Shown piece by piece: positions 8,305 to 58,029 of a DNA stretch of 64,000 bases. The notes under the pieces were generated by a model, which was not told where the DNA came from, searched no databases, and worked only from the letters and a program-made list of their open reading frames with translations. The position numbers and the translations under genes were made by a program. How positions within the stretch are numbered: position 1 is the first letter of the stretch; each line of letters starts with the position of its first letter. The stretch is from Streptomyces nigra (GTDB lineage Bacteria; Actinomycetota; Actinomycetes; Streptomycetales; Streptomycetaceae), in contig NZ_CP029043.1 of the NCBI RefSeq assembly GCF_003074055.1, positions 1,364,001 to 1,428,000 on the forward strand, in the 5' to 3' direction.

Positions 8305-8352
8305 CCCGCTGCTCGCCGGCCCTCGAACTCTGATGAGGAGCAATAACCCGAC

Positions 8353-10123: not shown

Positions 10124-10202
10124 TTCGCGCTGCCCGGACCCCGTACATAATGTGGGCCGAGACATCGGAGGTCTCGTGGGGCGGACGAGGGGGAGGGCGG
10201 CC

Positions 10203-10874
10203 ATGGCGGTCACCGACGAGGCGATCGAGAAGATCAAGGCGATGATCGTCTCCGGCGCGCTGCGCCCCGGGGACCGGCTGCCGAAGGAGAGCGAACTCGC
10301 GGCCGCGCTGGGACTGTCCCGCAACTCGCTGCGGGAGGCGGTGCGGGCGCTGTCGCTGATCCGCATCCTGGACGTCCGGCAGGGCGACGGGACGTATGTG
10401 ACCAGCCTGGACCCGCAGTTGCTGCTGGAGGCGCTGAGCTTCGTCGTCGACTTCCACCGCGACGACACCGTGCTGGAGTTCCTGGCGGTGCGCCGCATCC
10501 TGGAGCCGGCGGCCACGGCGATGGCGGCGGCCCGGATCAGCGAGCAGCAGCTCGACGGGCTGGCCGGTGAGCTGGACCGGCTCGGTGACGCCCCGTCGGT
10601 GGAGGAACTCGTCGCGAGCGACCTGGAGTTCCACCGGGGCATCGTGCGGGCGTCGGGCAACTCGGTGCTCTGCTCGCTGGTGGACGGACTGTCGGGGCCG
10701 ACGACGCGGGCCCGGATCTGGCGGGGGCTCACCCAGGAGGACGCGGTCGCCCGGACCCTGCACGAGCACCGGGCGATCCTCGCGGCGCTGCGGGACCGGG
10801 ACGCGGAGGCGGCGCGGTCGTGGGCGACCGTGCACATCGCGAGCGTGGAGCAGTGGCTGCGTTCGACGCTGTGA
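10203..10874 (+). CDS. FadR/GntR-family transcriptional regulator
   Basis: DNA-binding regulator of 223 residues. It has a GntR winged helix at residues about 5-70 (LPKESELAAALGLSRNSLREAVRAL, then a wing ending QGDGTYV) and an all-helical FCD ligand-binding domain with the metal-type motif DLEFHRGIVRASGN. The target and ligand are unknown. The ATG at 10203 follows GGGGGAGG. In-frame GTG codons at 10152 and about 10176 are possible alternatives, the latter also having GGAGG. It stands alone between the glp terminator and the PAC2 gene. Confidence 0.88.
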   Translation: MAVTDEAIEKIKAMIVSGALRPGDRLPKESELAAALGLSRNSLREAVRALSLIRILDVRQGDGTYVTSLDPQLLLEALSFVVDFHRDDTVLEFLAVRRILEPAATAMAAARISEQQLDGLAGELDRLGDAPSVEELVASDLEFHRGIVRASGNSVLCSLVDGLSGPTTRARIWRGLTQEDAVARTLHEHRAILAALRDRDAEAARSWATVHIASVEQWLRSTL

Positions 10875-11016
10875 CGTCGGATCTCTGCCGGGGGTGTTCC
10901 CGGGTGGGGATCGGGGCAGTGATCCCGCATCCCCCGTACGAGGGGGCTGCGGGCGCCCCCGCCGCACGCCGTAAGGTTGGTTCGTCAGGCGAGGGCACGT
11001 CGGAAGGAGGCGCTGG

Positions 11017-12033
11017 GTGATCGAGCTCGAGGGGGTTCCCGAGCTGATCGACCCGGTCATGGTGGCCGCGTTCGAGGGCTGGAACGATGCCGGCGACGCC
11101 GCCTCCACCGCGGTCGCGCATCTGGACAGGGAGTGGAAGGGCGAGGTGTTCGCGGCGCTGGACGCCGAGGACTACTACGACTTCCAGGTGAACCGGCCCA
11201 CGGTGTGGATGGACGCCGGAGTGCGCAAGATCACGTGGCCGACGACCCGGCTCTCGGTGGTCCGCGTCGGCGGTGACAAGCCGCGCGACCTGGTGCTGGT
11301 ACGCGGGATCGAACCGTCCATGCGCTGGCGCTCGTTCTGCAACGAGCTGCTCGGCTTCGCGCACGAGCTGGGCGTGGAGCTGGTGGTCATCCTGGGCGCC
11401 CTGCTCGGTGACACTCCGCACACCCGTCCGGTCCCGATCAGCGGGACCACCTCCGACCCGGATCTGGCGCGCCGGATGGATCTGGAGGAGACCAAGTACG
11501 AGGGCCCCACGGGCATCGTGGGCATCCTCCAGGAGGCCTGTACGCACGCCGGGGTGCCGGCGGTGTCGCTGTGGGCGGCGGTGCCGCACTACGTGTCGCA
11601 GCCGCCGAACCCGAAGGCGACGCTGGCGCTGCTGAACCGGCTCGAGGACCTGATCGACGTGCGCATCCCGCTGGGCGAGCTGCCCGAGGACGCGCGCGCC
11701 TGGCAGGTCGGCGTGGACCAGCTGGCCGCGGAGGACAGCGAGGTCGCCGAGTATGTGCAGTCGCTGGAGGAGGCCCGGGACACCGCGGAGCTGCCGGAGG
11801 CGTCGGGCGAGGCGATCGCCCGCGAGTTCGAGCGCTATCTGCGCCGCCGGGACGGTGGCGGGCCGACGGCCGGCGGGCACGCCACCGACGGCCAGGACGG
11901 CCCGTCGGGACCGCCGTTCCGCCGTGAGGGCCCCGGTGGCCCCGGTGGCCGCACCCGTCCGCCGAAGCCGCCGCGGCCGGGCGGGAAGGACAGTACGGAC
12001 ACGGACGCCGACGACGAGTCGTCGGAGGACTGA
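11017..12033 (+). CDS. PAC2 family protein (proteasome-assembly-chaperone-like fold)
   Basis: Cytosolic protein of 338 residues of unknown role. Its PAC2 domain (about residues 10-280) starts with PELIDPVMVAAFEGWNDAGDAAS and includes the conserved GALLGDTPHTRP segment. PAC2 proteins resemble archaeal and eukaryotic proteasome assembly chaperones and are common in actinobacteria, but a function here is not established. The last 60 residues are low-complexity Gly/Pro/Arg and end in an acidic tail (TDTDADDESSED), probably disordered. The GTG start follows GGAAGGAGG. It converges on the mshC cluster, with a bidirectional hairpin between them. Confidence 0.9.
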   Translation: MIELEGVPELIDPVMVAAFEGWNDAGDAASTAVAHLDREWKGEVFAALDAEDYYDFQVNRPTVWMDAGVRKITWPTTRLSVVRVGGDKPRDLVLVRGIEPSMRWRSFCNELLGFAHELGVELVVILGALLGDTPHTRPVPISGTTSDPDLARRMDLEETKYEGPTGIVGILQEACTHAGVPAVSLWAAVPHYVSQPPNPKATLALLNRLEDLIDVRIPLGELPEDARAWQVGVDQLAAEDSEVAEYVQSLEEARDTAELPEASGEAIAREFERYLRRRDGGGPTAGGHATDGQDGPSGPPFRREGPGGPGGRTRPPKPPRPGGKDSTDTDADDESSED

Positions 12034-12048
12034 GGTCCACGGGTGGAC

Positions 12049-12086
12049 GAAGGAGGGCGGTGCGCCGGTGCGCACCGCCCTCCTTC
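12049..12086. terminator. Bidirectional terminator between PAC2 gene and mshC
   Basis: A 17-base perfect stem (arms 12049-12065 and 12070-12086) with a 4-base CGGT loop lies between two convergent genes. Confidence 0.9.
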
Positions 12087-12102
12087 TTCGTGTTCTGCCC
12101 GG

Positions 12103-13332
12103 CTACAGGGCGACGCCCAGGAGCGCGTCCACGGCGCGGGAGACGACGCCGGGAGCCCCGATGTCCGTTCCGCCGTGCTCCTGCTGTGCGGCGGCCCAGC
12201 GGTCGACGGCGGCGAGCGCGGTGGGCGCGTCCAGGTCGTTCGCGAGGGCGTCGCGGATCTCCTCGACCAGCGCCTCGGCGGGCGGTCCGTCGGGCCGGGA
12301 CACGGCGGCGCGCCAGCGGTCGAGGCGGGCGACGGCGTCCCGGAGCACGTCGTCGGTGTACTCCCAGTCGGCCCGGTAGTGGTGGGCCAGCAGGGCGAGC
12401 CGGATGGCGGCCGGGTCGACGCCGTCACGGCGCAGCTGGGACACGAAGACGAGGTTGCCCTTGGACTTGGACATCTTCTCGCCGTGCAGGGCGACCATGC
12501 CGGCGTGGACGTACGCCTTGGCCATGGGGAACTCGCCGGTCAGCACCTGGGCGTGGGAGGCGCCCATCTCGTGGTGCGGGAAGGCGAGGTCGGAGCCGCC
12601 GCCCTGGACGTCGAAGCCCATGCCGAGGTGGTCGAGGGCGATGGCGACGCACTCGATGTGCCAGCCGGGGCGGCCCCGCCCGAGCGAGCCGCCGTCCCAG
12701 CTGGGCTCGCCCGGGCGGGCGGCCATCCACAGCATCGGGTCGAGGGGGTTCTTCTTGCCCGGGCGGTCCGGGTCGCCGCCGCGCTCGGCGGACAGCAGCC
12801 GCATGGCGGCGGCGTCCAGGTTGGAGACCTCGCCGAAGTGCGGGTCGGACTCGACGGAGAAGTAGATGTCGCCGTCGAGCTCGTAGGCGGCGCCGGCCTC
12901 GCGGAGGCGTTCGACCAGCGGGACGATCCCGGGTATGGCCTCGACGGCGCCGATGTAGTGGCGCGGCGGCAGCATCCGCAGGGCCGTCATGTCCTCGCGG
13001 AAGAGGGCGGTCTCCTTCTCGGCGAGGGCAACCCAGTCGACGTTGTCGCGCTCGGCCCGCTCCAGGAGCGGATCGTCGACGTCGGTGACGTTCTGGACGT
13101 AGTGGACCTGGCGCTTGGTGTCGAGCCACACGCGCTGCACGAGGTCGAACGCGTTGTAGGTCGCCGCGTGCCCCAGGTGGGTGGCGTCGTACGGGGTGAT
13201 GCCGCAGACGTAGATACGGGCGACGGGACCGGGGTCGAGGGTGACGAGGCCGCCGGTCGCGGTGTCGTGGATCCTCAGGTCGCGGCCCTGACCAGGCAGG
13301 GCGGGGACCTCAGAAGCGGGCCAGGCATGCAT
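12103..13332 (-). CDS. mshC: Cysteine:glucosaminyl-inositol ligase of mycothiol synthesis
   Basis: ATP-dependent ligase joining L-cysteine to 1-O-(2-amino-glucosyl)-myo-inositol, the third step of mycothiol biosynthesis. It is a paralogue of cysteinyl-tRNA synthetase. The 409 residues show the class I signatures HLGH (in [16 protein letters not shown]) and [10 protein letters not shown], and Zn ligands including CGITPYD and HHEMG. It is distinguished from CysS by the shorter C-terminus and by the opening [10 protein letters not shown], typical of MshC. No clear ribosome binding site precedes the ATG at 13332. It is the last gene of a conserved leftward cluster (phosphomutase, DUF3090, SCO1664 family, mshC). 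Confidence 0.95.
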
Positions 13333-13446
13333 GTCATGAGCCTAACCGGACGGATGTTCCGTATACGAACCGGACCGGCCCGGATGGCCGGTAAGGCGTT
13401 CTTGCGAGTGGGCGACCGGTGTGCTGCCGACCGCCCGGCCGGGGGG

Positions 13447-14265
13447 CTACACGGGAGGCCAGGGGATGGCGGGCCAGTCGCCGCCGGGCTGCGGGTGGAC
13501 GCCGGTGGTCAGAAGATCGGTGACCCGCGCGCGGGTGGCGTCCAACTCGGCGGGGGTGATCAGCTGTGCGAGGCGCGCCGCGAGCGGGCCGCCCTCCCCG
13601 AGCCCCTCGTCCAGGGTGCGCAGGACCCGCAGGGCGTCGTCGGTGAACGGCTCCCCCGCCCAGCCCCACAGCAGGGTCCTCAGCTTGTTCTCGACGTTGA
13701 AGGTGACGCCGTGGTCGATGCCGTGGAGCCGGCCGTCCGCGGTGGGCAGCAGATGCCCGCCCTTGCGGTCGGCGTTGTTGATCACGGCGTCGAGGACGGC
13801 GAGCCGCCGCAGCCGTTCGTCGTCGGCGTGCACGAGGAGGGCGGTGCGGCCCTCGCCGACCTCGGCGAAGCCGATCGCCTTCCAGCCCGGCTCGGGCTCC
13901 TCCCCGTCCACCAGGGCGAGGAGCTCTGCCTCGGGTGCCACGTCGATCCACAGCTGGACCATGCCCTCGCCGTACGGGCCGTCGCGGAGCACGGTGGGCG
14001 GTACGAGCCCCCAGCCGGTCGCCTCGGAGACCTCGTACGCGGCGACCTCCCGCTGGGCGAGGGTGCCGTCGGGGAAGTCCCACAGGGGCCGCTCGCCGGC
14101 GACCGGCTTGTACACGCAGGACGCCTCACGGCCGTCGAGGGCGACGGTGCACAGCAGCGCGGCGTTGGACGCCTCGCGGATGCGGCCGCGCACCGTCAGC
14201 TCACCCTCGGTGAGCAGGTCCACGGGGGTCACGCTCCGCGGCGGTATCCGTTCTGGCGCGGACAT
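13447..14265 (-). CDS. SCO1664 family protein (kinase-like fold, mshC-linked)
   Basis: Conserved actinobacterial protein of 272 residues without established function, in the family also described as TIGR03843. Visible motifs are NAALLCTVALDGREASCVYKP near the start, AVINNADRKGGHLL in the middle and GIDHGVTFNVENKLRTLLWGW after it. Lys-containing VYKP, the NADRKGGH loop and IDHG recall PI3/PI4- or HipA-type kinase active sites (Lys, catalytic Asp with Asn, metal-binding Asp), so a small-molecule or protein kinase is plausible but unproven. The ATG at 14265 has AAGGA upstream and lies within the last codons of the preceding DUF3090 gene, suggesting translational coupling. Confidence 0.88.
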   Translation of the reverse strand: MSAPERIPPRSVTPVDLLTEGELTVRGRIREASNAALLCTVALDGREASCVYKPVAGERPLWDFPDGTLAQREVAAYEVSEATGWGLVPPTVLRDGPYGEGMVQLWIDVAPEAELLALVDGEEPEPGWKAIGFAEVGEGRTALLVHADDERLRRLAVLDAVINNADRKGGHLLPTADGRLHGIDHGVTFNVENKLRTLLWGWAGEPFTDDALRVLRTLDEGLGEGGPLAARLAQLITPAELDATRARVTDLLTTGVHPQPGGDWPAIPWPPV

Positions 14266-14819
14266 ACGTGTCCTTCCGGGTCGAGCGGGAGGCTGCACAG
14301 CGGGCACGGCGGCCGCCCGGCGTTGACGACGTCGAGGGCGCGTTTGGCGAAGGCCCTCGCCTGGGCGCCGGTGAGCCGGACCCGCAGCATCGGGGGGCCG
14401 TTCTCCTCGTCCTGGAGGAGCCGCTCCTCGGCCTCGGCGAGGTCCTCATCGGTCTCGGCGTCGAGCTCCACCAGGGCCTGCGCCTCGACGATCATGCGCT
14501 GTTCCTCGCCGTCCCAGGCCAGGGCCATGGTGCCGACGCGGAACTCCTCCTCGACGGGGGTCTCCAGCGGATCGGTGTCGGCGATCTCGCTGGGGGCCAC
14601 GGCGGGGACGGCCGCGCTGCCCCCGCTGCGCCGTACGACCTCGTCGAGCAGTTCATCCATGCGCTCGGCGAGGGCGGCGACCTGCGTCTTCTCCAGGGCC
14701 ACGCTGGTCACCCGGGGGCCTGCGGTGGCCTGGAGGAAGAACGTACGGCGTCCGGGCAGTCCGACCGTGCCGGCCACGAAACGGTCCGGGGGGTCGTAGA
14801 GGAACACCTGACGGGACAC
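14229..14819 (-). CDS. DUF3090 family protein (possible zinc protein)
   Basis: Conserved actinobacterial protein of 196 residues, function unknown. The start MSRQVFLYDPPDRFVAGTVG and the segment RTFFLQATAGPRV are family hallmarks. The C-terminus CPLCSLPLDPEGHVCPRQNGY holds a CxxC and a later His/Cys pair that could bind zinc. The GTG start at 14819 follows GGAGACAGGAC. It overlaps the downstream SCO1664-family gene by 37 bases and belongs to the mshC cluster. Confidence 0.92.
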   Translation of the reverse strand: MSRQVFLYDPPDRFVAGTVGLPGRRTFFLQATAGPRVTSVALEKTQVAALAERMDELLDEVVRRSGGSAAVPAVAPSEIADTDPLETPVEEEFRVGTMALAWDGEEQRMIVEAQALVELDAETDEDLAEAEERLLQDEENGPPMLRVRLTGAQARAFAKRALDVVNAGRPPCPLCSLPLDPEGHVCPRQNGYRRGA

Positions 14820-14918
14820 GTCCTGTCTCCATGGGGGTCGTGAGTACGGCGGTTCGTGGAAGTCACGGGTGGTGCGGGGGGCGCTGCTTCGACCGCTTCA
14901 CCCTACTGCGCCGGACGA

Positions 14919-15605
14919 TCACGGTGCGCCCGCGCCGCCTCCGACGGCGGCGTCACCGGCCGCCGGTTCCTCGCGGGGGGCGAGGGACGCGAAGTCGCCG
15001 GTGTCCCCGAGGCGCACGAGGAACGGCCTCAGACGGGTGTAACGGATCGCGGTGATGGAACACGGTTCAACGGAGATCCTCTGGAAGAGGTCGAGATGAA
15101 GACCGAGTGCGTCCGCGACGAGCGACTTGATGATGTCGCCGTGCGAGCACATGACATAGACGGCGTCGGCGCCGTGGTCGCGCTCCACGCGCGCGTTCCA
15201 TTCGCGAACGGCCTCGGCGGCGCGGGTCTGCATGGCCCGCATCGACTCGCCGCCGGGGAACGCGGCCGCGGAGGGGTGCGCCTGGACGACGTCCATCAGC
15301 GGCTCGTCCTTGAGGTCGGCGAGCTTGCGGCCGGACCAGTCGCCGTAGTGGCACTCGCCGATGCGTTCCTCGGTGTGCGCGGTGAGGCCGGGGCGGGCGT
15401 CCAGGAGCGGGCGGATCGTCTCCTGGCAGCGCTGCAGCGGGCTGGTGACGATCTCGGCGATCGGCAGGGCGGCGAGCCGGCCGGGCAGCGCGGCGGCCTG
15501 CGCGGCCCCGCGCTCGTCGAGGGCGACGCCGGGCGTCCAGCCGGCGAGCACCCCTTCGGTGTTGGCGGTGGAACGTCCGTGGCGGACCAGGATCAGCGTG
15601 GGCAT
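14919..15605 (-). CDS. Histidine phosphatase, MSMEG_4193 family
   Basis: Predicted phosphomutase/phosphatase of the histidine phosphatase superfamily, 228 residues. The phosphohistidine motif is LVRHGRSTAN (residues about 5-14), the proton donor Glu lies in ECHYGDWSG, and the second catalytic His is in VMCSHGDIIKSL. The substrate is unknown. It heads the leftward cluster that ends with mshC, an arrangement also seen in mycobacteria. The start at 15605 is preferred because the protein then begins directly with MPTLILVRHG. An upstream in-frame ATG at 15623 would add six residues. The divergent corA starts about 60 bases away. Confidence 0.9.
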   Translation of the reverse strand: MPTLILVRHGRSTANTEGVLAGWTPGVALDERGAAQAAALPGRLAALPIAEIVTSPLQRCQETIRPLLDARPGLTAHTEERIGECHYGDWSGRKLADLKDEPLMDVVQAHPSAAAFPGGESMRAMQTRAAEAVREWNARVERDHGADAVYVMCSHGDIIKSLVADALGLHLDLFQRISVEPCSITAIRYTRLRPFLVRLGDTGDFASLAPREEPAAGDAAVGGGAGAP

Positions 15606-43260: not shown

Positions 43261-43306
43261 CGTCGTGACGTGGGACCGATCACGTTGGGGCACTCCTCTG
43301 GACGGC

Positions 43307-43324
43307 ATACCGACTGGTCGGCAT
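43307..43324. promoter_or_regulatory. Candidate TetR operator upstream of the APH-acyl-CoA dehydrogenase operon
   Basis: ATACCGACTGGTCGGCAT is a near-perfect palindrome ending 39 bases before the kinase-like gene. A related site lies at 48785-48800 in front of the SDR-ligase-TetR genes. It probably binds the TetR encoded at 45681-46274. Confidence 0.7.
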
Positions 43325-43363: not shown

Positions 43364-44407
43364 ATGAGCCCCGACCATCCGCCCGGACTCGATCTCGACC
43401 GGCTGCGCGGCCTGCTCGAGCGCGAGCTGCCCGGTCTGGCGCAGGGTCCGCTGACCGGCCGGCTGATCGAGGGCGGACGGTCCAACCTCACCTACACCGT
43501 CTCGGACGGCACCTCCCGCTGGGTCGTACGCCGCCCGCCGCTGGGCCACGTCCTCGCCACCGCGCACGACATGAAGCGCGAGCACCGCGTGATCAGCGCG
43601 CTGCACCCGACCAGTGTGCCGGTTCCGCGCCCGCTGCTGCTGTGCGAGGACGAGGAGGTGCTCGGGGCGCCGTTCTACATGATGGAGTTCGTCGAGGGCA
43701 CCCCGTACCGCACGGCCGGCCAGCTGGCCCCGCTCGGCCCGGAGCGCACCCGGGGCGCGGTGCTGTCGCTGGTGGACACCCTCGTCGGGCTGCACGCGGT
43801 GGACCCCGCCTCGGTGGGCCTGGAGGACTTCGGCCGCCCCGAGGGCTTCCTGGACCGGCAGCTGCGCCGCTGGGGCAAGCAGCTGGACGCCTCCCGCAAC
43901 CGCGACCTGGCCGGCATCGACGAGCTGCACGCGACGCTGGGCCGCCGTCTGCCGGACTCCCCCGCCGCGACCGTGATCCACGGCGACTACCGCCTGGACA
44001 ACGTGCTGATCGGCACCGACGACCGGATCAAGGCCATCCTCGACTGGGAGATGTCCACCCTCGGCGACCCGCTGACCGACCTGGGCCTGCTGGTGATGTA
44101 CGGCATGCCGCTCGGGATGCCCGACTCCCCGGTCTCCACGACCGCCGAGGCCCCCGGCCACCCCTCGCCCCGCGAGCTGATCGAGCGGTACGCCGAGCGG
44201 TCGGGCCGCGACGTCTCGGCGGTGTCCTGGTACACGGCGTTCGCCTGGTTCAAGCTCGCCGTGATCCTCGAGGGCATCCACTACCGCTACACCCTGGGCC
44301 AGACGGTCGGCCGCGGCTTCGACCGCATCGGCGACCTGGTCCCCGTCTTCATCCAGCACGGTCTGACCACGCTCCGCGACGGCATCGACGGCATCCAGGA
44401 AGGCTGA
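43364..44407 (+). CDS. APH-family phosphotransferase, ACAD10/11-type kinase partner
   Basis: Aminoglycoside-phosphotransferase-fold kinase of 347 residues. Conserved elements are the nucleotide-loop region IEGGRSNLTYTV with the Lys-equivalent region VVRRPP, the catalytic loop VIHGDYRLDNVLI and the metal motif ILDWEMSTLGDPLTDLG. This branch is the one fused to acyl-CoA dehydrogenase in animal ACAD10/11, where it phosphorylates 4-hydroxyacyl substrates. It is not a likely antibiotic resistance enzyme. The ATG at 43364 follows CGAGGAG. Only four bases separate its stop from the acyl-CoA dehydrogenase start. Confidence 0.92.
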   Translation: MSPDHPPGLDLDRLRGLLERELPGLAQGPLTGRLIEGGRSNLTYTVSDGTSRWVVRRPPLGHVLATAHDMKREHRVISALHPTSVPVPRPLLLCEDEEVLGAPFYMMEFVEGTPYRTAGQLAPLGPERTRGAVLSLVDTLVGLHAVDPASVGLEDFGRPEGFLDRQLRRWGKQLDASRNRDLAGIDELHATLGRRLPDSPAATVIHGDYRLDNVLIGTDDRIKAILDWEMSTLGDPLTDLGLLVMYGMPLGMPDSPVSTTAEAPGHPSPRELIERYAERSGRDVSAVSWYTAFAWFKLAVILEGIHYRYTLGQTVGRGFDRIGDLVPVFIQHGLTTLRDGIDGIQEG

Positions 44408-44411
44408 GGAC

Positions 44412-45626
44412 ATGGACTTCGCGTTCGACGCGCGCACCGAGGAACTCCGCGCGAAACTGTTGGCCTTCATGGACGAGCACGTCTACCCGGCCGAGGCGGT
44501 GGCCGAGGAGCAGCGCGCCCTGCTGGCCTCGCCGTGGGACACCCCGGCCGTGGTGGAGGAGCTGAAGGCCGAGGCCCGCCGGCAGGGCCTGTGGAACCTC
44601 TTCCTGCCGGACACCGAGTACGGCGCCGGTCTCACCAACCTCCAGTACGCGCCGCTCGCCGAGATCACCGGCCGCTCCCCGCATCTGGCCCCGACGGCGA
44701 CGAACTGCGCGGCGCCGGACACCGGGAACATGGAGGTGCTGGCTCAGTTCGGCGACGAGCGGCAGAAGAAGCAGTGGCTGGAGCCGCTGCTCGCGGGCGA
44801 GATCCGCTCGGCGTTCGCGATGACCGAGCCGGAGGTGGCGTCCTCCGACGCCACCAACATCACCACCCGGATCGAGCGGGACGGCGACGAGTACGTCATC
44901 ACCGGCCGCAAGTGGTACATCTCCGGCGCGATGAACCCCGACTGCGCGATCTTCATCGTGATGGGCAAGACGGACCCGGACGGCGCGGACATCCGCCGTC
45001 AGCAGTCCATGGTCCTGGTGCCCCGGGACACCCCGGGCGTGACCGTGCGGCGCGCGATGCGGGTCTTCGGCTACGAGGACCACTCGCACGGCGGCCACGC
45101 CGAGGTGGTCTTCGACCAGGCGCGCGTGCCCGTGGCCAACCTGGTCGGCGAGGAGGGCGGCGGCTTCGCCATCGCCCAGGCCCGGCTCGGCCCCGGCCGC
45201 ATCCACCACTGCATGCGGCTGATCGGCATGGCCGAGCGGGCGATCGAGCTGATGTGCCGGCGGGCGGCGTCCCGTACGGCGTTCGGCAAGGCGCTCGCCC
45301 AGCAGGGTGTGGTGCAGAACTGGATCGCGGACGCCCGGGTGACCGTCGAGCAGCTGCGGCTGCTGGTGCTGAAGACGGCCTGGCTGATGGACACCGTCGG
45401 CAACCGGGGCGCCCACACCGAGATCCAGGCCATCAAGATCGCCACTCCGCGCGCGGTCGTCGACATCATCGACCGGGCGATCCAGCTGTACGGCGCGGGC
45501 GGCGTCAGCCAGGACTTCCCGCTCGCGGAGCTGTACGCCTCGGCGCGGACGCTGATGATCGCCGACGGGCCGGACGAGGTGCACCAGCGGTCGCTGGCCC
45601 GGCGGGAGCTGAAGAAGTACCTGTAG
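44412..45626 (+). CDS. Acyl-CoA dehydrogenase, ACAD10/11-type
   Basis: FAD enzyme of 404 residues close to ACAD10/11 and the bacterial 4-phosphohydroxyacyl-CoA lyase branch. FAD-binding segments are AFAMTEPEVASSDATNI, KWYISGAMNPDCAIFIVMGKT and IQLYGAGGVSQDFPLA. The C-terminal ADGPDEVHQRSLARRELKKY has DGPDEVH where the usual catalytic-Glu motif YEGT would be, as in ACAD11. The ATG at 44412 overlaps a GAGGA signal. It is cotranscribed with the APH kinase and ends in a 17-base hairpin. Confidence 0.93.
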   Translation: MDFAFDARTEELRAKLLAFMDEHVYPAEAVAEEQRALLASPWDTPAVVEELKAEARRQGLWNLFLPDTEYGAGLTNLQYAPLAEITGRSPHLAPTATNCAAPDTGNMEVLAQFGDERQKKQWLEPLLAGEIRSAFAMTEPEVASSDATNITTRIERDGDEYVITGRKWYISGAMNPDCAIFIVMGKTDPDGADIRRQQSMVLVPRDTPGVTVRRAMRVFGYEDHSHGGHAEVVFDQARVPVANLVGEEGGGFAIAQARLGPGRIHHCMRLIGMAERAIELMCRRAASRTAFGKALAQQGVVQNWIADARVTVEQLRLLVLKTAWLMDTVGNRGAHTEIQAIKIATPRAVVDIIDRAIQLYGAGGVSQDFPLAELYASARTLMIADGPDEVHQRSLARRELKKYL

Positions 45627-45634
45627 CGGCACGC

Positions 45635-45672
45635 GTGCGGGGCCCCGGTGGAAGTCCACCGGGGCCCCGCAC
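45635..45672. terminator. Bidirectional terminator between acyl-CoA dehydrogenase and TetR genes
   Basis: Perfect 17-base stem (45635-45651 with 45656-45672) and a 4-base AAGT loop between convergent transcription units. Confidence 0.9.
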
Positions 45673-45680
45673 GGGCGTGT

Positions 45681-46274
45681 TCAGGGGCGCAGGGCGCGCA
45701 GCAGCAGGTCGGCGAGGTGGTCGGCGACCTCCTGCGGGCTGAGCGGGCCGTCGGGCCGGTACCACGTGGACAGGTGGTGGACCGAGCCGAAGTGGTAGTC
45801 GACCACGAGGTCGGCCGGGGTCGCCGTGGAGAAGACGCCGGTGCGCTGGCCCTCCTCGATGAGCGCACGGAAGCGTTCGTGGTAGCGCCGGCGCTCGGCG
45901 CGCACCAGTTTGTTCTTCTCGGGGCTCAGATGGTGCATCGAGCGGAAGAAGATCGAGGCGTCGTCGAGGTTCTCGATCGTCGTCACGACCACGTCCGCGG
46001 CGGCGCCCCGCAGCCGCTTCTCCACGGGCTCGTCGGCGTCCGCGAAGGCATCCAGGCGCTCCTGCTGGACGCGCAGCACCCGGGCGTACACCTCGTGCAG
46101 GAGGTCGTCCTTGGAGCCGAAGTAGTGGTAGAGCGCCCCCTTGGTGACGCCGGCCGCCTCCACGATCTCCTGCACCGAGGTGCGGTCGTAGCCCTGCTCC
46201 GCGAAGAGCCGGGTGGCGGCGGCGAGCAGCCGCTGCGGGACGGGCGTGCCGTCACCGTCCGTCGTCCTGGCCAC
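45681..46274 (-). CDS. TetR-family regulator of the acyl catabolism island
   Basis: Repressor of 197 residues. The N-terminal TetR helix-turn-helix (about residues 12-58) contains TRLFAEQGYDRTSVQEIV and EAAGVTKGALYHYFGSKDDLL. The C-terminal ligand domain resembles FadR/KstR2-type regulators of acyl-CoA metabolism. The GTG at 46274 is the most upstream plausible start. It lies downstream of the SDR and ligase genes and faces the dehydrogenase, and paired palindromes upstream of both operons suggest one shared regulon with an acyl-CoA as inducer. Confidence 0.92.
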   Translation of the reverse strand: MARTTDGDGTPVPQRLLAAATRLFAEQGYDRTSVQEIVEAAGVTKGALYHYFGSKDDLLHEVYARVLRVQQERLDAFADADEPVEKRLRGAAADVVVTTIENLDDASIFFRSMHHLSPEKNKLVRAERRRYHERFRALIEEGQRTGVFSTATPADLVVDYHFGSVHHLSTWYRPDGPLSPQEVADHLADLLLRALRP

Positions 46275-46314
46275 TGTGCCGCCACCTGCCTTCCGAGAAG
46301 TGCGCCTGCTGTGT

Positions 46315-47979
46315 CTATCCGTCGTTGCTTCGGGAACGCAGTTCCCGACGGAGGATCTTCCCACTCGCCGTCTTGGGCAAGTCGGGCAGGATCTCCACCT
46401 GCCGCGGATATTTGTAGGCGGCCAGTCTCTCCCTGCAGTGGGCGACGAGTTCACCGGGGTCGGTCCCGGCACCCGGACGGAGGCTGATGTACGCCTTGAC
46501 GGTCTCGCCGCGGTAGCCGTCGGGCACGCCGACGACGGCCGCCTCCCGGACGTCGGGATGGGCGTGCAGGACGTCCTCGACCTCGCGGGGCCACACCTTG
46601 AAGCCGGACGCGTTGATCATGTCCTTCTTGCGGTCGACGACGTACAGCCAGCCGTCGGCGTCCATGAAGCCGATGTCTCCGGTGCGCAGTTCGCCGTCCG
46701 GGAAGGTCTCGGCGGTGGCGTCGGGCCGACGCCAGTAGCCGGGGATCACCTGCGGTCCGCGGACGACGATCTCGCCCTGCTCGCCGAAGGGCACCTCGTC
46801 GCCCCGGTCGTCGATTATCCGTACGACCGTGTCGGGGCCCGGCAGGCCCACGGCGAGGGTCCCGGAGGCGGGGTCGACGGGGGCTTCGAGGCCGGGCGGC
46901 ACGGAGGCGCAGGGGGCGGTGCACTCGGTGAGGCCGTAGCCGTTGCGGATGTACGGCCCGAGGGCGTCCCGGAACCGCTCGACCAGGGCCGGCGGGAGCG
47001 GGGCGCCGCCGGAGGAGATCATGCGGAACGAGGCGAAGTGCTCACGGGTGACGGCCGGGTGGGCGGCGAGCGCCATGAAGGCCGTCGAGGGGCCGACGGT
47101 GTAGTGCGGCCGGTGCTCGGCGAAGGCGTCGAGGACGACGCCCGCCTCGAAGCGGTACGCGAGCACCAGGGTGCCCCCGCTGACCAGGCAGGCGCCGAAC
47201 TGGCAGACCATGCCGGTGATGTGGAACAGCGGGGCGAGCGCGAAGTAGACGGGCGGGTCGGGCAGTTCGAGGCCCGTCCGCTGCCGCTCGGCGTTGTGGA
47301 GGATGTTGCGGTGGGTGTTGGTGGCGCCCTTCGGGGTGCCGCTGGTGCCCGAGGTGTAGCTGATCAGTGCGGTCCCGGACGGCTCCGGGGCGCGGCCCTC
47401 GGGGGCGGGGTGCCCGGCGCGGGCGACAGCGGTGAGGTCGTCGGTGTCCGCGGGGGCCGGGAGCCGGTCGAGGCCGCTCACCCGGGGGTCGTCGCGGGTC
47501 TGGAGGTCGGCCTCGCAGGCGCTGAGCACGATCTTCACCGGGGAGTCGGCGGCCGTCGTGCGCAGATACGTCTCCCAGGCGCGGCGGGAGCAGACGAGGG
47601 CGGCCACCTCGCCGTCCCGCAGGACGTGCCCGACCTCGGCCGACTTGTACATCGGGTTGACGGGGACGACGATGGCGCCGGCCTTCCAGGCGCCGAGTGC
47701 GGCGAGCACGAAGTGCGGGGAGTTCTGCAGCTGGACGGCGACCCGGTCGCCGGGCTCCAGGCCGCGGGCGGCGAGGTGCCCGGCGACGGAGTCGCTGAGC
47801 TCGTCGACCTCGCGGTACGTCAGGCGCCCGTCGAAGTAGGCGAGGCAGACCCGGTCGGGGGTCTCGGCGGCGACCCGGCGCAGGGCGTGCACCAGGGAGT
47901 CGTCCGGTGCGACGGGGGCGCGCTGGGCCTCGGTGAGCAGGGCCAGCCAGGGCTTGGCGGCGTAACGGGAGGCGGTCAC
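46315..47979 (-). CDS. AMP-dependent acyl-CoA synthetase/ligase
   Basis: ANL-superfamily ligase of 554 residues activating a carboxylic acid to its CoA thioester. The P-loop is SYTSGTSGTPKGATNTHRNI, the adenylation motif is NGYGLTECTAP, the hinge region is TGDIGFMDADGWLYVVDRKKDMINASGFKVWP, and the catalytic Lys lies in PKTASGKILRRELR near the C-terminus. Substrate class is probably a medium or hydroxylated fatty acid, by context. The GTG start at 47979 follows GGGAGGAG and overlaps the SDR stop by four bases. Confidence 0.94.
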   Translation of the reverse strand: MTASRYAAKPWLALLTEAQRAPVAPDDSLVHALRRVAAETPDRVCLAYFDGRLTYREVDELSDSVAGHLAARGLEPGDRVAVQLQNSPHFVLAALGAWKAGAIVVPVNPMYKSAEVGHVLRDGEVAALVCSRRAWETYLRTTAADSPVKIVLSACEADLQTRDDPRVSGLDRLPAPADTDDLTAVARAGHPAPEGRAPEPSGTALISYTSGTSGTPKGATNTHRNILHNAERQRTGLELPDPPVYFALAPLFHITGMVCQFGACLVSGGTLVLAYRFEAGVVLDAFAEHRPHYTVGPSTAFMALAAHPAVTREHFASFRMISSGGAPLPPALVERFRDALGPYIRNGYGLTECTAPCASVPPGLEAPVDPASGTLAVGLPGPDTVVRIIDDRGDEVPFGEQGEIVVRGPQVIPGYWRRPDATAETFPDGELRTGDIGFMDADGWLYVVDRKKDMINASGFKVWPREVEDVLHAHPDVREAAVVGVPDGYRGETVKAYISLRPGAGTDPGELVAHCRERLAAYKYPRQVEILPDLPKTASGKILRRELRSRSNDG

Positions 47980-48749
47980 CGGGTCTCCTCCCAGCGCTGC
48001 TGGAGGTGGTTCATCCCGGCCAGCCAGCGGTCGGGGGCGGCGGCCCGCGTCTCGTAGTACCCGGCGACCTCGGGGTGCGGGAGGATCAGGAAGCGGTCCT
48101 CCTCCATGCCCTTGAACAGGGCGTCCGCCACGTCCTCGGGGGCGATGGCGGTGGGCTTCAGCACCAGGTCGCCGGCGCTGCCGGTGGCGTCCAGCATGTC
48201 GGTGCGCACGCCCTGCGGGCAGATGGCGTGGACCTTGATCCCGCGGTGCCGGTACGTCAGCGCCAGGTATTCGGCGAAGGCGAGGGCGCCGTGCTTGGTG
48301 ACGGCGTAGGGAGCGGCGCCGATCATGGTGAGCAGCCCGGCGGCCGACACGGTGGAGACGAAACGGCCGTTGCCGCGCTCCAGCCAGTCGGGCAGCAGGG
48401 CCTGGGCGGCCCGCACCTGGGCCATGACGTTGACGTCCCAGGACGTCGCCCACGCCCGCTCGTCGAGCGGTGCGCCGGGGTCGTCCCCGGCGAAGGCGAC
48501 GCCCGCGTTGGCGCACCAGACGTCGATCGTGCCGCCGAGCGCGTCACGGGCCTCGGCGACGATCGCCGAGGCGTCGCCGGGGACGGCGAGGCCGCCGATC
48601 TCCCCCGCGACCGCCCGCGCCTTCACGGCGTCCAGGTCGTTGACGGCGACCCGGGCCCCGGCGGCCGCGAACCGCCGGGCCAGCGCGGCGCCGATGCCCC
48701 CTCCGGCCCCGGTGACGACGACTGCGGCGTCCTGCACGGCTTGCACCAT
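47976..48749 (-). CDS. Short-chain dehydrogenase/reductase
   Basis: NAD(P)-dependent SDR of 257 residues. The cofactor motif is TGAGGGIG (about residue 13), the structural motif is CANAG, the catalytic Ser is in STVSAAG, and YxxxK reads YAVTKHG. An Asp at the end of strand 2 (VNDLD) favours NAD. In context it probably oxidises or reduces a hydroxyacyl intermediate. The ATG at 48749 has GAAGGAG upstream. It is the first gene of the leftward SDR-ligase-TetR operon, with a candidate TetR operator 36-51 bases upstream. Confidence 0.94.
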   Translation of the reverse strand: MVQAVQDAAVVVTGAGGGIGAALARRFAAAGARVAVNDLDAVKARAVAGEIGGLAVPGDASAIVAEARDALGGTIDVWCANAGVAFAGDDPGAPLDERAWATSWDVNVMAQVRAAQALLPDWLERGNGRFVSTVSAAGLLTMIGAAPYAVTKHGALAFAEYLALTYRHRGIKVHAICPQGVRTDMLDATGSAGDLVLKPTAIAPEDVADALFKGMEEDRFLILPHPEVAGYYETRAAAPDRWLAGMNHLQQRWEETR

Positions 48750-48784
48750 CGGTCTCCTTCGACTGCGGCTCCTGGCGGAGTCAG

Positions 48785-48800
48785 ACTAACCGGTCGGTAT
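48785..48800. promoter_or_regulatory. Candidate TetR operator upstream of the SDR operon
   Basis: ACTAACCGGTCGGTAT shares its right arm GTCGGTAT with the palindrome at 43307-43324. The left arm is degenerate. It lies between the SDR gene and the divergent NamZ gene and could influence either. Confidence 0.6.
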
Positions 48801-48885
48801 GTTCGAGGGAAGGGCTGTGAAAGGGCTTGCGCCACCCGGCTCCGGCACCTTCCCTGCGCTCCGCACGGGCAATACGGTGCACCCC

Positions 48886-55318: not shown

Positions 55319-55780
55319 ATGGCAGAGCCGAGGATCTTCACCGGCGCCGACGACCTGAAGGCGGCGGTGGGCGAGCAGCTGGGGTACACCGACTGGCTGG
55401 AGGTCGACCAGAAGCGGATCGACACGTTCGCGGAGGCCACCGGCGACCACCAGTGGATTCATGTCGACCCGGAGAGGGCCGCCTCCGGCCCGTTCGGGAC
55501 GACCATCGCCCACGGCTACCTCACGCTGTCGCTGCTGCCGCTGTTCGGCCCCCAGCTGATCGCGGTCGAGGGCGTGAAGATGGGCGTCAACTACGGCACC
55601 AACAAGGTGCGTTTCCCCGCCCCGGTGCCCGTCGGCTCGCGGCTGCGCGCCACCGCCGCCATCACCGACGTCACGGATGTGCCGGGCGGTGTGCAGGTCA
55701 GCGTCGCCTTCACCGTGGAGCGCGAGGGCGGGGACAAGCCCGTCTGCGTGGCCGAGTCCGTCTCCCGGTACTACCTGTAG
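55319..55780 (+). CDS. MaoC family enoyl-CoA hydratase
   Basis: Hot-dog-fold hydratase of 153 residues that would hydrate an enoyl-CoA or dehydrate a 3-hydroxyacyl-CoA. The R-hydratase motif is ATGDHQWIHVDPERA with the Asp-His pair, followed by IAHGYLTLSLLP and GVNYGTNKVRFPAPV. It is convergent with the TetR gene 10 bases away and shares a palindrome type with that gene's promoter, so regulation by it is likely. Confidence 0.94.
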   Translation: MAEPRIFTGADDLKAAVGEQLGYTDWLEVDQKRIDTFAEATGDHQWIHVDPERAASGPFGTTIAHGYLTLSLLPLFGPQLIAVEGVKMGVNYGTNKVRFPAPVPVGSRLRATAAITDVTDVPGGVQVSVAFTVEREGGDKPVCVAESVSRYYL

Positions 55781-55790
55781 ACAGCCGGGG

Positions 55791-56417
55791 CTACTTCGAC
55801 GCCCCGACCATCCGCAGCACGAGGTCGGCGTAGAGCGCGCCGACCTCGTCCGGCGTCCAGGGGCCGGACACGTTGAACCAGCGGGCCACGTCGATGCAGA
55901 GGGACAGCACGGCGAGGGTGGTGCCCTTGACGTCCAGGACGTCGAAGTCGCCGGCCGCCACACCCTCCTCGATGATCCCGCGCACCTCGGCGTCGCACCG
56001 GCGGCGCAGGGCGAGGATCTCGGCGCGGGCGTCGGGGCCGAGCGAGTCGAGTTCGTACTGCACGACCCGGGCGGTGGTGCGCCCGCCGGCGTGCCAGCGG
56101 ACGAAGGAGCCCACCGCGTCGGCGAGCCGCTCGGCCGGGGTGCCCTCCCGCCGGGCCGCCGTGCGCAGGATGTCCAGCGCCTTCTCGTGGCCGATGCGGC
56201 TGATCCGGTGGAGGAGCTCCTCCTTGGTCTTGTAGTGGATGTAGAGCGCGGCCGGGCTCATGCCCGCGCGGCCCGCGATGTCCCGGGTCGTCGTGGCGTG
56301 GTAGCCGCGCTCGGCGAAGGCCTCCACGGCGGCGATCAGCAGCCGCCGGGCCGCGTCGGGCGTGACCTCACCCCACGCCGACGTCTCGCCGCCGGCCGTG
56401 TCCTCCGCCGTACTCAT
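55791..56417 (-). CDS. TetR-family regulator next to MaoC
   Basis: Repressor of 208 residues with the helix-turn-helix in VEAFAERGYHATTTRDIA and GRAGMSPAALYIHYKTKEELLHRI, and a TetR_C ligand domain. It is convergent with MaoC. CTAAGC-type palindromes precede both its own gene and MaoC, so it probably represses both. An acyl-CoA inducer is likely from the context. Confidence 0.92.
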   Translation of the reverse strand: MSTAEDTAGGETSAWGEVTPDAARRLLIAAVEAFAERGYHATTTRDIAGRAGMSPAALYIHYKTKEELLHRISRIGHEKALDILRTAARREGTPAERLADAVGSFVRWHAGGRTTARVVQYELDSLGPDARAEILALRRRCDAEVRGIIEEGVAAGDFDVLDVKGTTLAVLSLCIDVARWFNVSGPWTPDEVGALYADLVLRMVGASK

Positions 56418-56465
56418 CGCTCACTCGCCCCTCTCGCTGACAGAGGCTCCACCATACCGCCCCAG

Positions 56466-56481
56466 GTGAGCGGGCGCTTAG
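56466..56481. promoter_or_regulatory. Candidate autoregulatory TetR operator
   Basis: GTGAGCGGGCGCTTAG is an imperfect palindrome of the same CTAAGCR-type as 55264-55279, 49 bases upstream of the TetR start. Confidence 0.55.
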
Positions 56482-56503
56482 CGCGCGGTGGCCGACGTTC
56501 CGC

Positions 56504-56752
56504 TCAGTGCTTGGGGAAGGGCGGGTAGGCGGGCGGCGCGGTGGCGTCCTGCCGGTCGCGGATCACCTTGGCGAGGGTGAACGCGGACGTGACCAGGTAC
56601 AGGACGGCGATCGCCAGGAAGGCGCGCACCCAGGCGTCGGCGTTCAGTTTGAAGATGCCGATCGCGGTCGCGGCCATGGCGACGGCGAAGGAGGCGACGG
56701 CCTGCCCGTAGAAGGCCGCGGTGTTCTGGGACTTGCCCGATGCGTCACTCAT
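56504..56752 (-). CDS. YiaA/YiaB family inner membrane protein
   Basis: Small membrane protein of 82 residues with the two YiaAB helices: AAFYGQAVASFAVAMAATAIGIFKLNADAW and VRAFLAIAVLYLVTSAFTLAKVIRD. A Pro-rich tail follows. The function of the family is unknown. A 21-base tandem array lies between it and the next leftward gene upstream. Confidence 0.9.
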   Translation of the reverse strand: MSDASGKSQNTAAFYGQAVASFAVAMAATAIGIFKLNADAWVRAFLAIAVLYLVTSAFTLAKVIRDRQDATAPPAYPPFPKH

Positions 56753-56810
56753 GGGCCCATGCTCGGGCCGCCGCGGCCGGTCCGGTATCCGTCGGGGTAC
56801 TCAGCCCGTA

Positions 56811-56873
56811 CTCAGAACGGTTCAGCCGGTGCGCAGAACCGTTCACCCGGTGCGCAGAACGCCTCAGCCGGTG
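56811..56873. repeat. 21-base tandem repeat, three copies
   Basis: Three imperfect 21-base units with the core GCAGAACCGTTCACCCGGTG lie between the YiaAB start and the acyl-CoA dehydrogenase stop. A partial fourth copy overlaps the dehydrogenase stop. Confidence 0.8.
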
Positions 56874-56877
56874 GTGC

Positions 56878-58029
56878 TCAGAACGCGGAGACCCCCGTGA
56901 GCGCCCGCCCGATGACCAGCTTCTGGATCTGGCTGGTGCCCTCGTAGAGGGTCATCACGCGGGCGTCGCGCAGCAGCTTGCCCACCGGATACTCGTCGAT
57001 GTAGCCGTAGCCGCCGTAGACCTGCAGGGCGTTGTTGGCGGCCCGCACGGCGGCCTCGGAGGCGAACAGCTTGGCCTTGGAGGACTCCACGGCGAACGGC
57101 AGCCCCCGGTCGATCAGATCGGCGACCCGCCAGGTCAGCAGCCGGGCCGCGTCCACGTCGACGGCGATGTCGCTGATCAGCTCCTGGACCAGCTGGTGCC
57201 CGGCGATGGGCTTGCCGAACTGCTCGCGCTCCCCGGCGTAGCGCACGGCGGCGTCCAGCGCGGCCTGGGCGATACCCACACAGCCCGCGGCGACCGACAT
57301 CCGGCCCTTGGCCAGCGCCGACATGGCGACGGAGAAACCCTTGCCCTCCTCGCCCAGCAGGGCGGACGCGGGCACGCGGACCCCGTCGAGGACCAGTTCG
57401 GCGGTGGCCTGGCCGCGCAGACCGAGCTTGCCGTGGACCGTGCGGCGGGTCAGGCCGGGCGTGTCCGTGGGCACCAGGAACGCGGAGACGCCCTTGTGGC
57501 CGGGGGCGTCGGTGGAGCGGGCGAAGAGCAGCACGACGTCGGCCCAGGTGCCGTTGGTGATGAACATCTTGGAGCCGGAGATCACATAGTCGTCGCCGTC
57601 GCGTACGGCCCGGGTGGCGAGGCTGCCCGCGTCGGAGCCGGTGCCCGGCTCGGTGAGGCCGAAGCAGCCGACGAGGTCGCCCCCGGTGAGCCCGGGCAGC
57701 CAGCGCCGCTTCTGCTCCTCGCTCCCCCAGGCCGCGATCGTCTTGGCGACCAGGCCCAGCGAGACCGACACGATGCCGCGCACCGAGGAGTCGCCCCGGC
57801 CCAGCTCCTCGGTGACCAGGCAGTACGCGAGATGGTCGCCGCCGGAGCCGCCGTACTCCTCGTCGATCGTCAGGCCCAGGAAGCCGACCTCGCCGAGCTT
57901 CTTGACGATCGAGCGGTCCACTTCCTCCGCGCGGTCCCACGCGACGGCGTTCGGCGCGATCTCGCGGTCCACGAAGTCCCGGGCGAGCCGGCGGACGGCG
58001 GACTGCTCCTCGCTGAGCTCCAGGTTCAT
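56878..58029 (-). CDS. Acyl-CoA dehydrogenase
   Basis: FAD-dependent dehydrogenase of 383 residues introducing an alpha,beta double bond into an acyl-CoA. Signatures are the N-terminal SEEQSAVRRLARDFV, the flavin-binding CFGLTEPGTGSDA and KMFITNGTWADVV, and the catalytic Glu in RVMTLYEGTSQIQKLVIGRAL. This is the short or medium chain type rather than ACAD10/11. It is divergent from the TetR gene at 58096, and the shared gap holds a TAGTTT palindrome. The ATG at 58029 is preceded by GAGGTGTCCGCCGC. Confidence 0.95.
   Translation of the reverse strand: MNLELSEEQSAVRRLARDFVDREIAPNAVAWDRAEEVDRSIVKKLGEVGFLGLTIDEEYGGSGGDHLAYCLVTEELGRGDSSVRGIVSVSLGLVAKTIAAWGSEEQKRRWLPGLTGGDLVGCFGLTEPGTGSDAGSLATRAVRDGDDYVISGSKMFITNGTWADVVLLFARSTDAPGHKGVSAFLVPTDTPGLTRRTVHGKLGLRGQATAELVLDGVRVPASALLGEEGKGFSVAMSALAKGRMSVAAGCVGIAQAALDAAVRYAGEREQFGKPIAGHQLVQELISDIAVDVDAARLLTWRVADLIDRGLPFAVESSKAKLFASEAAVRAANNALQVYGGYGYIDEYPVGKLLRDARVMTLYEGTSQIQKLVIGRALTGVSAF

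Follow-up and report, generated by a model that had tools for sequence, protein, structure and literature searches.

Organization and conservation of the locus

The locus lies in a window of 64,000 nucleotides of Streptomyces nigra DNA, the whole stretch that was analyzed, and holds five genes, all of them real, together with two operator sequences (Table 1). The kinase gene and the gene for an acyl-CoA dehydrogenase-fold enzyme (hereafter ACAD) are both on the plus strand, with a gap of exactly four bases between them. The initial annotation regarded this as a split form of ACAD10/11, and two genes four bases apart are indeed present, but separate kinase and ACAD genes are the usual state in bacteria and so represent no departure. 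Facing the pair is a minus-strand operon in the order SDR, ligase, TetR, an arrangement that had been proposed earlier and is confirmed by the coordinates and Pfam assignments. The ligase begins with a GTG codon at 47979 that overlaps the SDR stop, and 40 bases separate its end at 46315 from the TetR start at 46274.

Table 1. Genes and operators of the locus, numbered from the first base of the window
Feature	Position	Strand	Description
APH-fold kinase	43364..44407	+	PF01636; predicted 4-hydroxyacyl-CoA kinase, LvaA / ACAD10-11 kinase-domain type
ACAD10/11-type acyl-CoA dehydrogenase-fold enzyme	44412..45626	+	PF02771/PF02770/PF00441; predicted 4-phosphoacyl-CoA phosphate-eliminating enzyme
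TetR-family regulator	45681..46274	-	PF00440+PF17932; probable repressor of both operons
AMP-binding acyl-CoA ligase	46315..47979	-	PF00501+PF13193; predicted CoA activation; not constant
SDR oxidoreductase	47976..48749	-	PF00106; predicted 4-oxo-/4-hydroxyacyl interconversion
Operator CATACCGACTGGTCGGCAT	43306..43324	+	39 bases 5' of kinase start
Operator CATACCGACCGGTTAGTCT	48783..48801	-	33 bases 5' of SDR start

An orthologue was found in each of the 24 genomes sampled from the genus. The kinase is directly 5' of the ACAD gene on the same strand at all 24 loci, one of which is cut by a contig end, and this constant adjacency indicates that the pairing is not due to chance. The TetR gene is present at 23 of the 24, the remaining locus being cut by a contig end, and the SDR at 20; the SDR also occurs near APH-ACAD pairs in other actinobacterial families. 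A whole or partial ligase gene was recovered at 18 of the 24 loci and was not found at five others although the contigs continue there. The ligase is thus a variable, not a fixed, component of the gene set.

The ACAD-fold enzyme and its kinase

Best matches, active-site residues and phylogeny support the assignment of the ACAD to the ACAD10/11 type, a kind of enzyme that is already known. Its best match among solved structures is ACAD11 at 457 bits, compared with 141 bits for the best ordinary dehydrogenase, and it is 54.6% identical to mouse ACAD11. The residues reported to handle phosphate in ACAD11 are R626, H634 and R637, which include the HCMR motif, and the catalytic residue is Asp753 in place of Glu. 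Residues R258, R263, H266, R269 and D385 of the S. nigra enzyme align with R626, R631, H634, R637 and D753 of ACAD11; the HCMR motif is present as H266-C-M-R269, and both the upstream arginine R258 and the catalytic D385 are kept. Among the relatives gathered, all 30 with scores of 600 bits or more retain the five signature positions, as do 104 of 107 between 350 and 600 bits and all 12 between 200 and 350 bits; below 200 bits they are retained in 2 of 15 only. In the tree the enzyme falls inside a 34-row ACAD11 clade (support 100/99) that also contains the human and mouse ACAD11 proteins and a Burkholderia enzyme. Placement of the enzyme among the ordinary beta-oxidation ACADs, the outcome that the initial annotation named as refuting its reading, was put to an AU test and rejected (p-AU 0.00013). 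No kinase was found near many of the other loci of the ACAD11 clade when the kinase of this locus served as query, a search that divergent kinases could escape.

The kinase has the ACAD11 kinase among its best solved matches (186 bits) and is 36.8% identical to mouse ACAD11. Its residues D208, N213, R165 and D227 align with D220, N225, R176 and D240 of ACAD11, and the catalytic Asp and Asn are conserved, as is the CoA-side Arg. Also conserved is the Arg next to the alpha-C Glu; it counts as residue 84 on the deposited ACAD11 chain, a number that does not match the R86 of the published description. An APH fold, an adjoining gene and intact catalytic residues mark this protein as the partner of the ACAD. 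The kinase family is broad, and phosphorylation of a 4-hydroxyl rather than of another position cannot be read from the sequence. For the pair as a whole, the ACAD10/11 identity first proposed has held on best matches, active-site residues and tree, and its predicted chemistry is the most secure part of our explanation.

The SDR carries the motifs TGAGGGIG and YAVTK and an Asp after beta2, and it could act elsewhere, for instance as a 3-hydroxyacyl-CoA dehydrogenase. The predicted ligase is similar to many acyl-CoA ligases.

The TetR regulator and its probable operator

The operator is found 5' of the kinase at all 23 evaluated loci of the genus (22 with ten of ten core positions and one with nine) and 5' of the SDR at all 20 evaluated (18 with ten of ten and two with nine). 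Conservation of the same operator before both operons across the genus suggests that they probably form one TetR regulon, and this common operator, which is new here, backs the view that the two facing operons belong together. In one genome (G012) 1.8 Mb separate the SDR from the kinase/ACAD pair, and in another (G076) 11 kb, with the operator retained at both parts in each case. In a third (G018) neither SDR nor ligase was found in the vicinity of the pair, and the operator sits before the TetR gene.

A strict 19-base operator pattern has matches in 57 of 61 genomes of the genus, and the reversed pattern has a single match across all 61; four genomes contain no strict site and 11 contain just one. 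The core is not unique to this system, as exact core sites also occur at loci lacking this TetR. A scan of the S. nigra genome with one mismatch allowed gave 14 sites compared with 9 for the reversed control, and owing to this closeness exact sites alone were used. Two candidate further targets of the regulon are a molybdopterin oxidoreductase, in many species, and an F420-dependent luciferase-like oxidoreductase, in some. Selenocysteine was considered for the molybdopterin enzyme (in-frame TGAs) and dropped, no stop being present inside the aligned part at the three loci checked. The label of gamma-butyrolactone receptor (ScbR) was likewise dropped for the TetR protein, which scores 70 bits against the ScbR-type NCBIfam model NF041196, below its cut-off of 150.

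Proposed pathway

We consider it likely, judging from gene content, residues and operators, that the locus is one TetR-controlled two-operon set feeding 4-hydroxy (probably also 4-oxo) acids to beta-oxidation by way of 4-hydroxyacyl-CoA, 4-phosphoacyl-CoA and 2-enoyl-CoA. The CoA thioester would be made by the ligase of the locus or by another cellular ligase, and the SDR would convert 4-oxoacyl-CoA to 4-hydroxyacyl-CoA or catalyze the reverse. The kinase, from its residues and homology, is expected to phosphorylate the 4-hydroxyl. In the ACAD-fold enzyme, Asp385 would then remove the C2 proton, FAD would serve as an internal hydride shuttle, and the phosphate held by R258, H266 and R269 would be expelled to give 2-enoyl-CoA with no net redox change, leaving general beta-oxidation to complete the breakdown. 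The overall conversion of 4-hydroxyacyl-CoA to 2-enoyl-CoA would use ATP and need no electron acceptor. The TetR protein would bind the CATACCGACYGGT sites before both operons and presumably let go of them in response to a pathway acyl-CoA.

The elimination mechanism of ACAD10/11 is partly shown and partly proposed in the available portions of PMC11342911 and PMC12440821, according to which animal and Burkholderia relatives perform 4-hydroxyacyl chemistry in vitro. The kinase and ACAD of B. pseudomallei are described as substituting for the ACAD10 domains in vitro (excerpts of PMC11342911). Among the CC-licensed PubMed Central papers listed we found none on this locus, nor biochemical or growth data for a close relative; the accessible part of PMC13118837 does not mention it, and for S. 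coelicolor locus tags the literature gave a metabolic-model entry only (PMC5539140, in the part available).

Alternative explanations

The chemistry may be as proposed while the role is to clear the cell's own 4-hydroxyacids, such as those left where beta-oxidation of mid-chain-hydroxylated or oxidised lipids stalls or those from opened gamma-lactones, instead of supporting growth on external carbon; we hold this to be a serious possibility, somewhat short of an even chance. The orthologue in every sampled genome of the genus is in keeping with it. Excerpts of PMC12440821 speculate that ACAD10/11 clear oxygenated lipids and cite a 4-hydroxy C10 compound from ricinoleate in microbes, and on one Streptomyces plasmid a pair of this kind lies close to ketosynthases and an AfsA-related gene. 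Against this role, the similarity of the TetR protein to ScbR-type lactone receptors stays below the cut-off. A broader and rather unlikely extension would be a genus-wide Streptomyces 4-hydroxyacid regulon, in which the TetR protein senses 4-hydroxyacyl- (or 4-phosphoacyl-) CoA and controls the pair, the SDR-ligase operon and the molybdopterin and luciferase-like oxidoreductases, clearing oxidised lipids or gamma-lactones, possibly including the lactone signals made by the producer itself.

The initial annotation saw in these genes a complete set resembling the levulinate/4-hydroxyacid pathway of pseudomonads. Its ACAD10/11-type pair and its facing operons, now linked by the operator, stand; the lva pathway and a fixed ligase are not supported. 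In a levulinate (lva) operon the ligase would form levulinyl-CoA, the SDR would reduce it, and the kinase and ACAD would convert 4-hydroxyvaleryl-CoA. The kinase, ACAD-fold enzyme and SDR, and the ligase of the described clusters, are classes common to both systems (excerpts of PMC6692424), as are the signature residues of the ACAD. Mutation of lvaE, the ligase gene, is also said to leave P. putida able to grow on levulinate (same excerpts), which fits the variable ligase here. All lva comparisons used a proxy for the P. putida KT2440 proteins: the P. fluorescens operon L274, chosen because its gene order and PrpR_N/sigma-54 regulator match the P. citronellolis levulinate cluster in the available part of PMC6692424, with its DUF6285 protein taken as LvaB by size and place. 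A P. putida ACAD (L174) was rejected as LvaC, having no kinase match near it and the kinase match of that genome lying on another contig. Identities to L274 are 31% for the kinase, 36% for the ACAD and 26% for the SDR. The comparison with LvaC proposed earlier, run with the proxy clade L274/L237, left the S. nigra ACAD in a separate clade, and joining the two clades was rejected (p-AU 0.000115). Neither a DUF6285 (LvaB-like) homologue (tblastn, E 0.001) nor a sigma-54 PrpR_N/LvaR-like homologue (L274 regulator as query) was found in the window, where a TetR regulator is present instead. The LvaC-like protein of L274 is 32.5% identical to mouse ACAD11, unlike the LvaC of PMC11342911, whose available text gives 62% identity to ACAD10 and 56% to ACAD11. 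Judged against this proxy, membership in the lva operon is rejected on the AU test, the low identities and the missing LvaB- and LvaR-like proteins; the link to that operon is weak, with no ligase gene recovered at several loci, and we regard an lva-type levulinate operon as quite improbable.

That the ACAD is an ordinary beta-oxidation enzyme beside an unrelated kinase is very improbable. The annotation favors it by fold only. SCO1690 is presumably the S. coelicolor orthologue of the ACAD. This gene is among those assigned to a tetradecanoyl-CoA dehydrogenase reaction in one S. coelicolor metabolic model (excerpts of PMC5539140). A FadE-, SCAD- or MCAD-type enzyme is nevertheless contradicted by the match scores, phosphate-binding residues, tree and AU test, and by the kinase that adjoins the ACAD at all 24 loci of the genus that were sampled. 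An antibiotic (aminoglycoside or macrolide) phosphotransferase shares the APH superfamily fold with the kinase but can be dismissed, since the curated APH/MPH models lie far under cut-off (the best of those listed at 31.6 bits against 205), the ACAD11 kinase is among the best solved matches and the ACAD neighbor is constant.

Significance and comparison with known systems

Papers of 2024 and 2025 linked ACAD10/11 to the breakdown of 4-hydroxyacids. In a genetically tractable genus, a core bacterial version made of two genes and equipped with a regulator of its own would be a natural source of the kinase and the eliminase as separate proteins, would offer a possible 4-hydroxyacyl-CoA sensor and would let one ask why cells need a 4-hydroxyacid route. 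The locus also suggests that labels given by fold only, such as acyl-CoA dehydrogenase and aminoglycoside phosphotransferase, can misguide metabolic models.

As a stand-in for the tested B. pseudomallei pair of LvaA/LvaC orthologues (excerpts of PMC11342911) we took that of B. cenocepacia (L141), presumably equivalent. Its ACAD belongs to the same ACAD11 clade with 58.7% identity, and its kinase and ACAD are likewise separate genes, with two SDR genes lying between them. The gene order and neighbors differ, and that stretch gave no match to the ligase or to TetR.

Animal ACAD10 and ACAD11, as described in the accessible parts of PMC12440821 and PMC11342911, have the kinase followed by the ACAD in the same order as here. 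The S. nigra ACAD shares with the animal enzymes the HCMR motif, the Arg that precedes it and the catalytic Asp. The animal proteins are single polypeptides, and the HAD domain of ACAD10 is absent here; in S. nigra the two activities would instead reside in two separate proteins within a bacterial, TetR-associated gene set.

Gene organization and enzyme identity

In this window (72.1% G+C), the five genes of the initial annotation, a kinase of the APH fold paired with an acyl-CoA-dehydrogenase-fold gene (ACAD) and a facing operon of SDR, ligase and TetR, were confirmed by their coordinates and Pfam folds. None of the five proteins reached the cut-off of a curated NCBIfam model among the matches listed, which comprised the best 25 of 108 families for the ligase and the best 25 of 195 for the SDR. 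The SDR carries the nucleotide motif, YAVTK and an Asp after beta-2, and SDRs with this Asp usually use NAD(H).

Genes of the locus and their positions in the window
Gene	Coordinates	Strand	Pfam fold	Spacing
Kinase	43364-44407	+	confirmed	
ACAD	44412-45626	+	confirmed	four bases after kinase
SDR	48749-47976	-	confirmed	overlaps ligase start
AMP-binding ligase	47979-46315	-	confirmed	start overlapped by SDR
TetR	46274-45681	-	confirmed	40 bases past ligase

About 6.5 kb past the SDR, a MaoC-like dehydratase gene (PF01575), a gene judged by eye to be TetR-like, and an ordinary acyl-CoA dehydrogenase with 33% identity to the ACAD of the locus make up a group of their own (55319-58029).

When searched against all solved structures, the ACAD matched mouse ACAD11 (457 bits), human ACAD11 (454) and 4hr3 (443), while the best other dehydrogenase scored 141 bits. 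The best structures for the kinase were 9o56 (235 bits), named only as an aminoglycoside phosphotransferase, the ACAD11 kinase (186 and 183) and 3dxp (177), after which the score drops to 51 bits. According to PMC12440821 and PMC11342911, the catalytic base of ACAD11 is Asp753, phosphate is held by Arg626, His634 and Arg637, Arg631 is common to ACADs generally, and Asp220 is catalytic with Asn225 in the kinase. The corresponding ACAD residues are D385, R258, H266, R269 and R263, and D208 and N213 of the kinase occupy the places of Asp220 and Asn225. Among 164 distinct ACAD sequences gathered, the window copy included and binned by bits to the query, all five ACAD positions were kept in 30/30 at 600 bits or more, 104/107 at 350-600, 12/12 at 200-350, and 2/15 below 200.

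A maximum-likelihood tree of 47 rows, chosen by hand among the 89 rows of an earlier tree, placed the window ACAD in a clade of 34 rows (bootstrap 100, SH-aLRT 99) that also contains ACAD11 of human and mouse and sequences from Burkholderia, Bacillus, planctomycetes and others. Constraining the nine-row subclade of the window ACAD with ordinary dehydrogenases was 61.7 log units worse (p-AU 0.00013), and a grouping with ordinary beta-oxidation enzymes, which the initial annotation had named as evidence against its reading, was rejected. Constraint with the LvaC-like clade was 57.4 log units worse (p-AU 0.000115), and an LvaC-type enzyme is ruled out as far as our proxy for the pseudomonad operon shows. 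Both p-values are optimistic, as the rows of the constrained groups were picked once the tree was known, though the margins are large. Structure matches, residues and clade together support the view that the pair encodes ACAD10/11-type enzymes, as had been proposed from sequence.

Conservation of the gene set

All 24 genomes sampled from the genus have an ACAD orthologue (84-95% identity, one match partial). The genome of the window has one ACAD of this type, after which the best match falls to 160 bits. The kinase is directly upstream in 24/24 loci, and the TetR is found in 23; in the last one a contig end interrupts the locus. The SDR accompanies 20 of the 24; two of the others (L039, L049) are cut by contig ends, one (L052) has none in the 15 kb fetched, and in genome G012 it lies 1.8 Mb off. 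The ligase is whole or partial in 18 loci. Of the other six, a contig end truncates one; the fetched stretches of L040, L041, L042, L044 and L052 showed no ligase, though it may lie elsewhere in these genomes, and the ligase is thus the replaceable part. PMC6692424 reports that levulinate still supports growth of an lvaE mutant. In G012, ligase residues 363-550 lie near the pair (L055) and residues 4-324 with the distant SDR (L132), as would result from a rearrangement, or an assembly error, with its breakpoint inside the gene.

Outside the genus, the SDR also accompanies the kinase/ACAD pair. It is near the pair in L057-L059 (59-62% identity) and L136 (56%). Among the best 80 loci of a genome scan (L145-L224), from which frequencies cannot be drawn, the SDR follows the ACAD immediately in L166, L186 and L196 (44-48%), and L197 has SDR (57%), kinase (57%) and ACAD (73%) all in one direction.

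A shared operator

The sequence CATACCGACTGGTCGGCAT lies 39 bases before the kinase and CATACCGACCGGTTAGTCT lies 33 bases before the SDR. With at most one mismatch, ATACCGACYGGT occurs in the window at these two places only (0.26 expected), and two or more matches were obtained in 5/100 shuffles. The ten-base core is exact before the kinase in 22 of 23 same-genus loci evaluated (one change in the other) and before the SDR in 18 of 20 (one change in two); as a control, 71 of 3000 random 260-base pieces of the fetched loci, true sites included, reached 10/10. A strict 19-base pattern was found twice in 40 of the 61 genus genomes, three times in 6 and once in 11, so that 57 had at least one site and 4 had no site; its reversed form matched once across all 61.

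The operators travel with separated genes in G012 (1.8 Mb apart) and G076 (11 kb apart). In G018 the operator precedes the TetR, and SDR and ligase were not found nearby. Three loci outside the genus with a TetR relative (58-73% identity) have the operator before kinase or TetR, the core being exact in L054 and L214 and nine of ten in L060. On the other side, the exact core is also present in loci without this TetR, which means that other regulators share the motif. Taken together, the shared sites suggest that both facing operons form one regulon, apparently with a regulator of its own.

A palindromic copy of the motif directly precedes an ACAD11-type gene in Nocardiopsis suaedae (L168:7967-8001), in a locus where no relative of the TetR was found. 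A copy of the kinase-ACAD-TetR-SDR locus on plasmid NZ_CP121683.1 of Streptomyces cathayae (L138, ~6918-10767) has both operators, with IS3 genes close by and F420/luciferase-like genes downstream; its TetR looks broken, since the match is split into two pieces and no TetR gene is annotated. On plasmid NZ_CP107949.1 of Streptomyces sp. NBC_00388 (L137, ~6853-15487), a kinase/ACAD11-type pair near ketosynthase genes and an AfsA-related gene hints at biosynthetic use or removal of a lactone-type product.

The genome of the window has four sites with the exact 13-base motif, two being the kinase and SDR operators. The others precede a molybdopterin oxidoreductase (L085:9099-11418) and an F420-dependent luciferase-like oxidoreductase (L086:7953-8854; TIGR03619 above cut-off). 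Among the best 30 of 47 molybdopterin orthologues, 26 have the exact motif upstream and 4 have it with one change; among the best 30 of 46 luciferase-like orthologues, 5 have it exactly, 7 have it with one change and 18 lack it. In the 150 bases downstream, matches never exceeded 10 of 13. The right half of the molybdopterin site differs, and in the loci looked at another TetR gene adjoins this site, which may for these reasons answer to that TetR. Both genes are possible extra members of the regulon, or targets of another TetR.

Proposed function

Gene order, residues, clade and operator conservation were observed, and the scheme that follows is inferred. The acid would be activated with CoA by this or another ligase, and the SDR would interconvert 4-oxo- and 4-hydroxyacyl-CoA. 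The kinase would phosphorylate at C4, and D385 of the ACAD would deprotonate C2, with hydride passing to FAD and back and phosphate lost to give 2-enoyl-CoA. An acyl-CoA of the pathway may release the TetR. The pathway could serve growth on an external carbon source or rid the cell of its own oxidised acids, and the core-like distribution leans to the second role.

Comparison with known systems

The initial annotation likened the locus to the levulinate pathway of pseudomonads, for which our proxy was an lva-type operon of P. fluorescens PS862 (L274). This has a divergent sigma-54 regulator with PrpR_N, followed by APH kinase, DUF6285, histidine phosphatase, ACAD and SDR, an order that agrees with the P. 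citronellolis levulinate cluster of PMC6692424, except that an lvaB homologue was not found there. The likeness was not borne out against this proxy: identities are 31% (kinase), 36% (ACAD) and 26% (SDR), the ACADs fall in separate clades, and the DUF6285 protein and sigma-54 regulator have no match in the window. The proxy ACAD is also far from ACAD11 (32.5% to mouse ACAD11), at odds with the identities of LvaC to ACAD10 (62%) and ACAD11 (56%) in PMC11342911. In P. putida GM4FR, the surroundings of an ACAD11-type gene (L174:8001-9230) include a CoA-transferase gene (PF01144) but no kinase match; the kinase match of this genome is on another contig.

The split of kinase and ACAD into two genes, pointed out in the initial annotation, is probably the ordinary bacterial state and therefore no novelty. 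The enzyme system is of a known kind and the regulon is the new part. The enzyme system is moderately interesting, since it belongs to a family whose function became settled only of late and is present in a tractable genus, together with a seemingly dedicated regulator.
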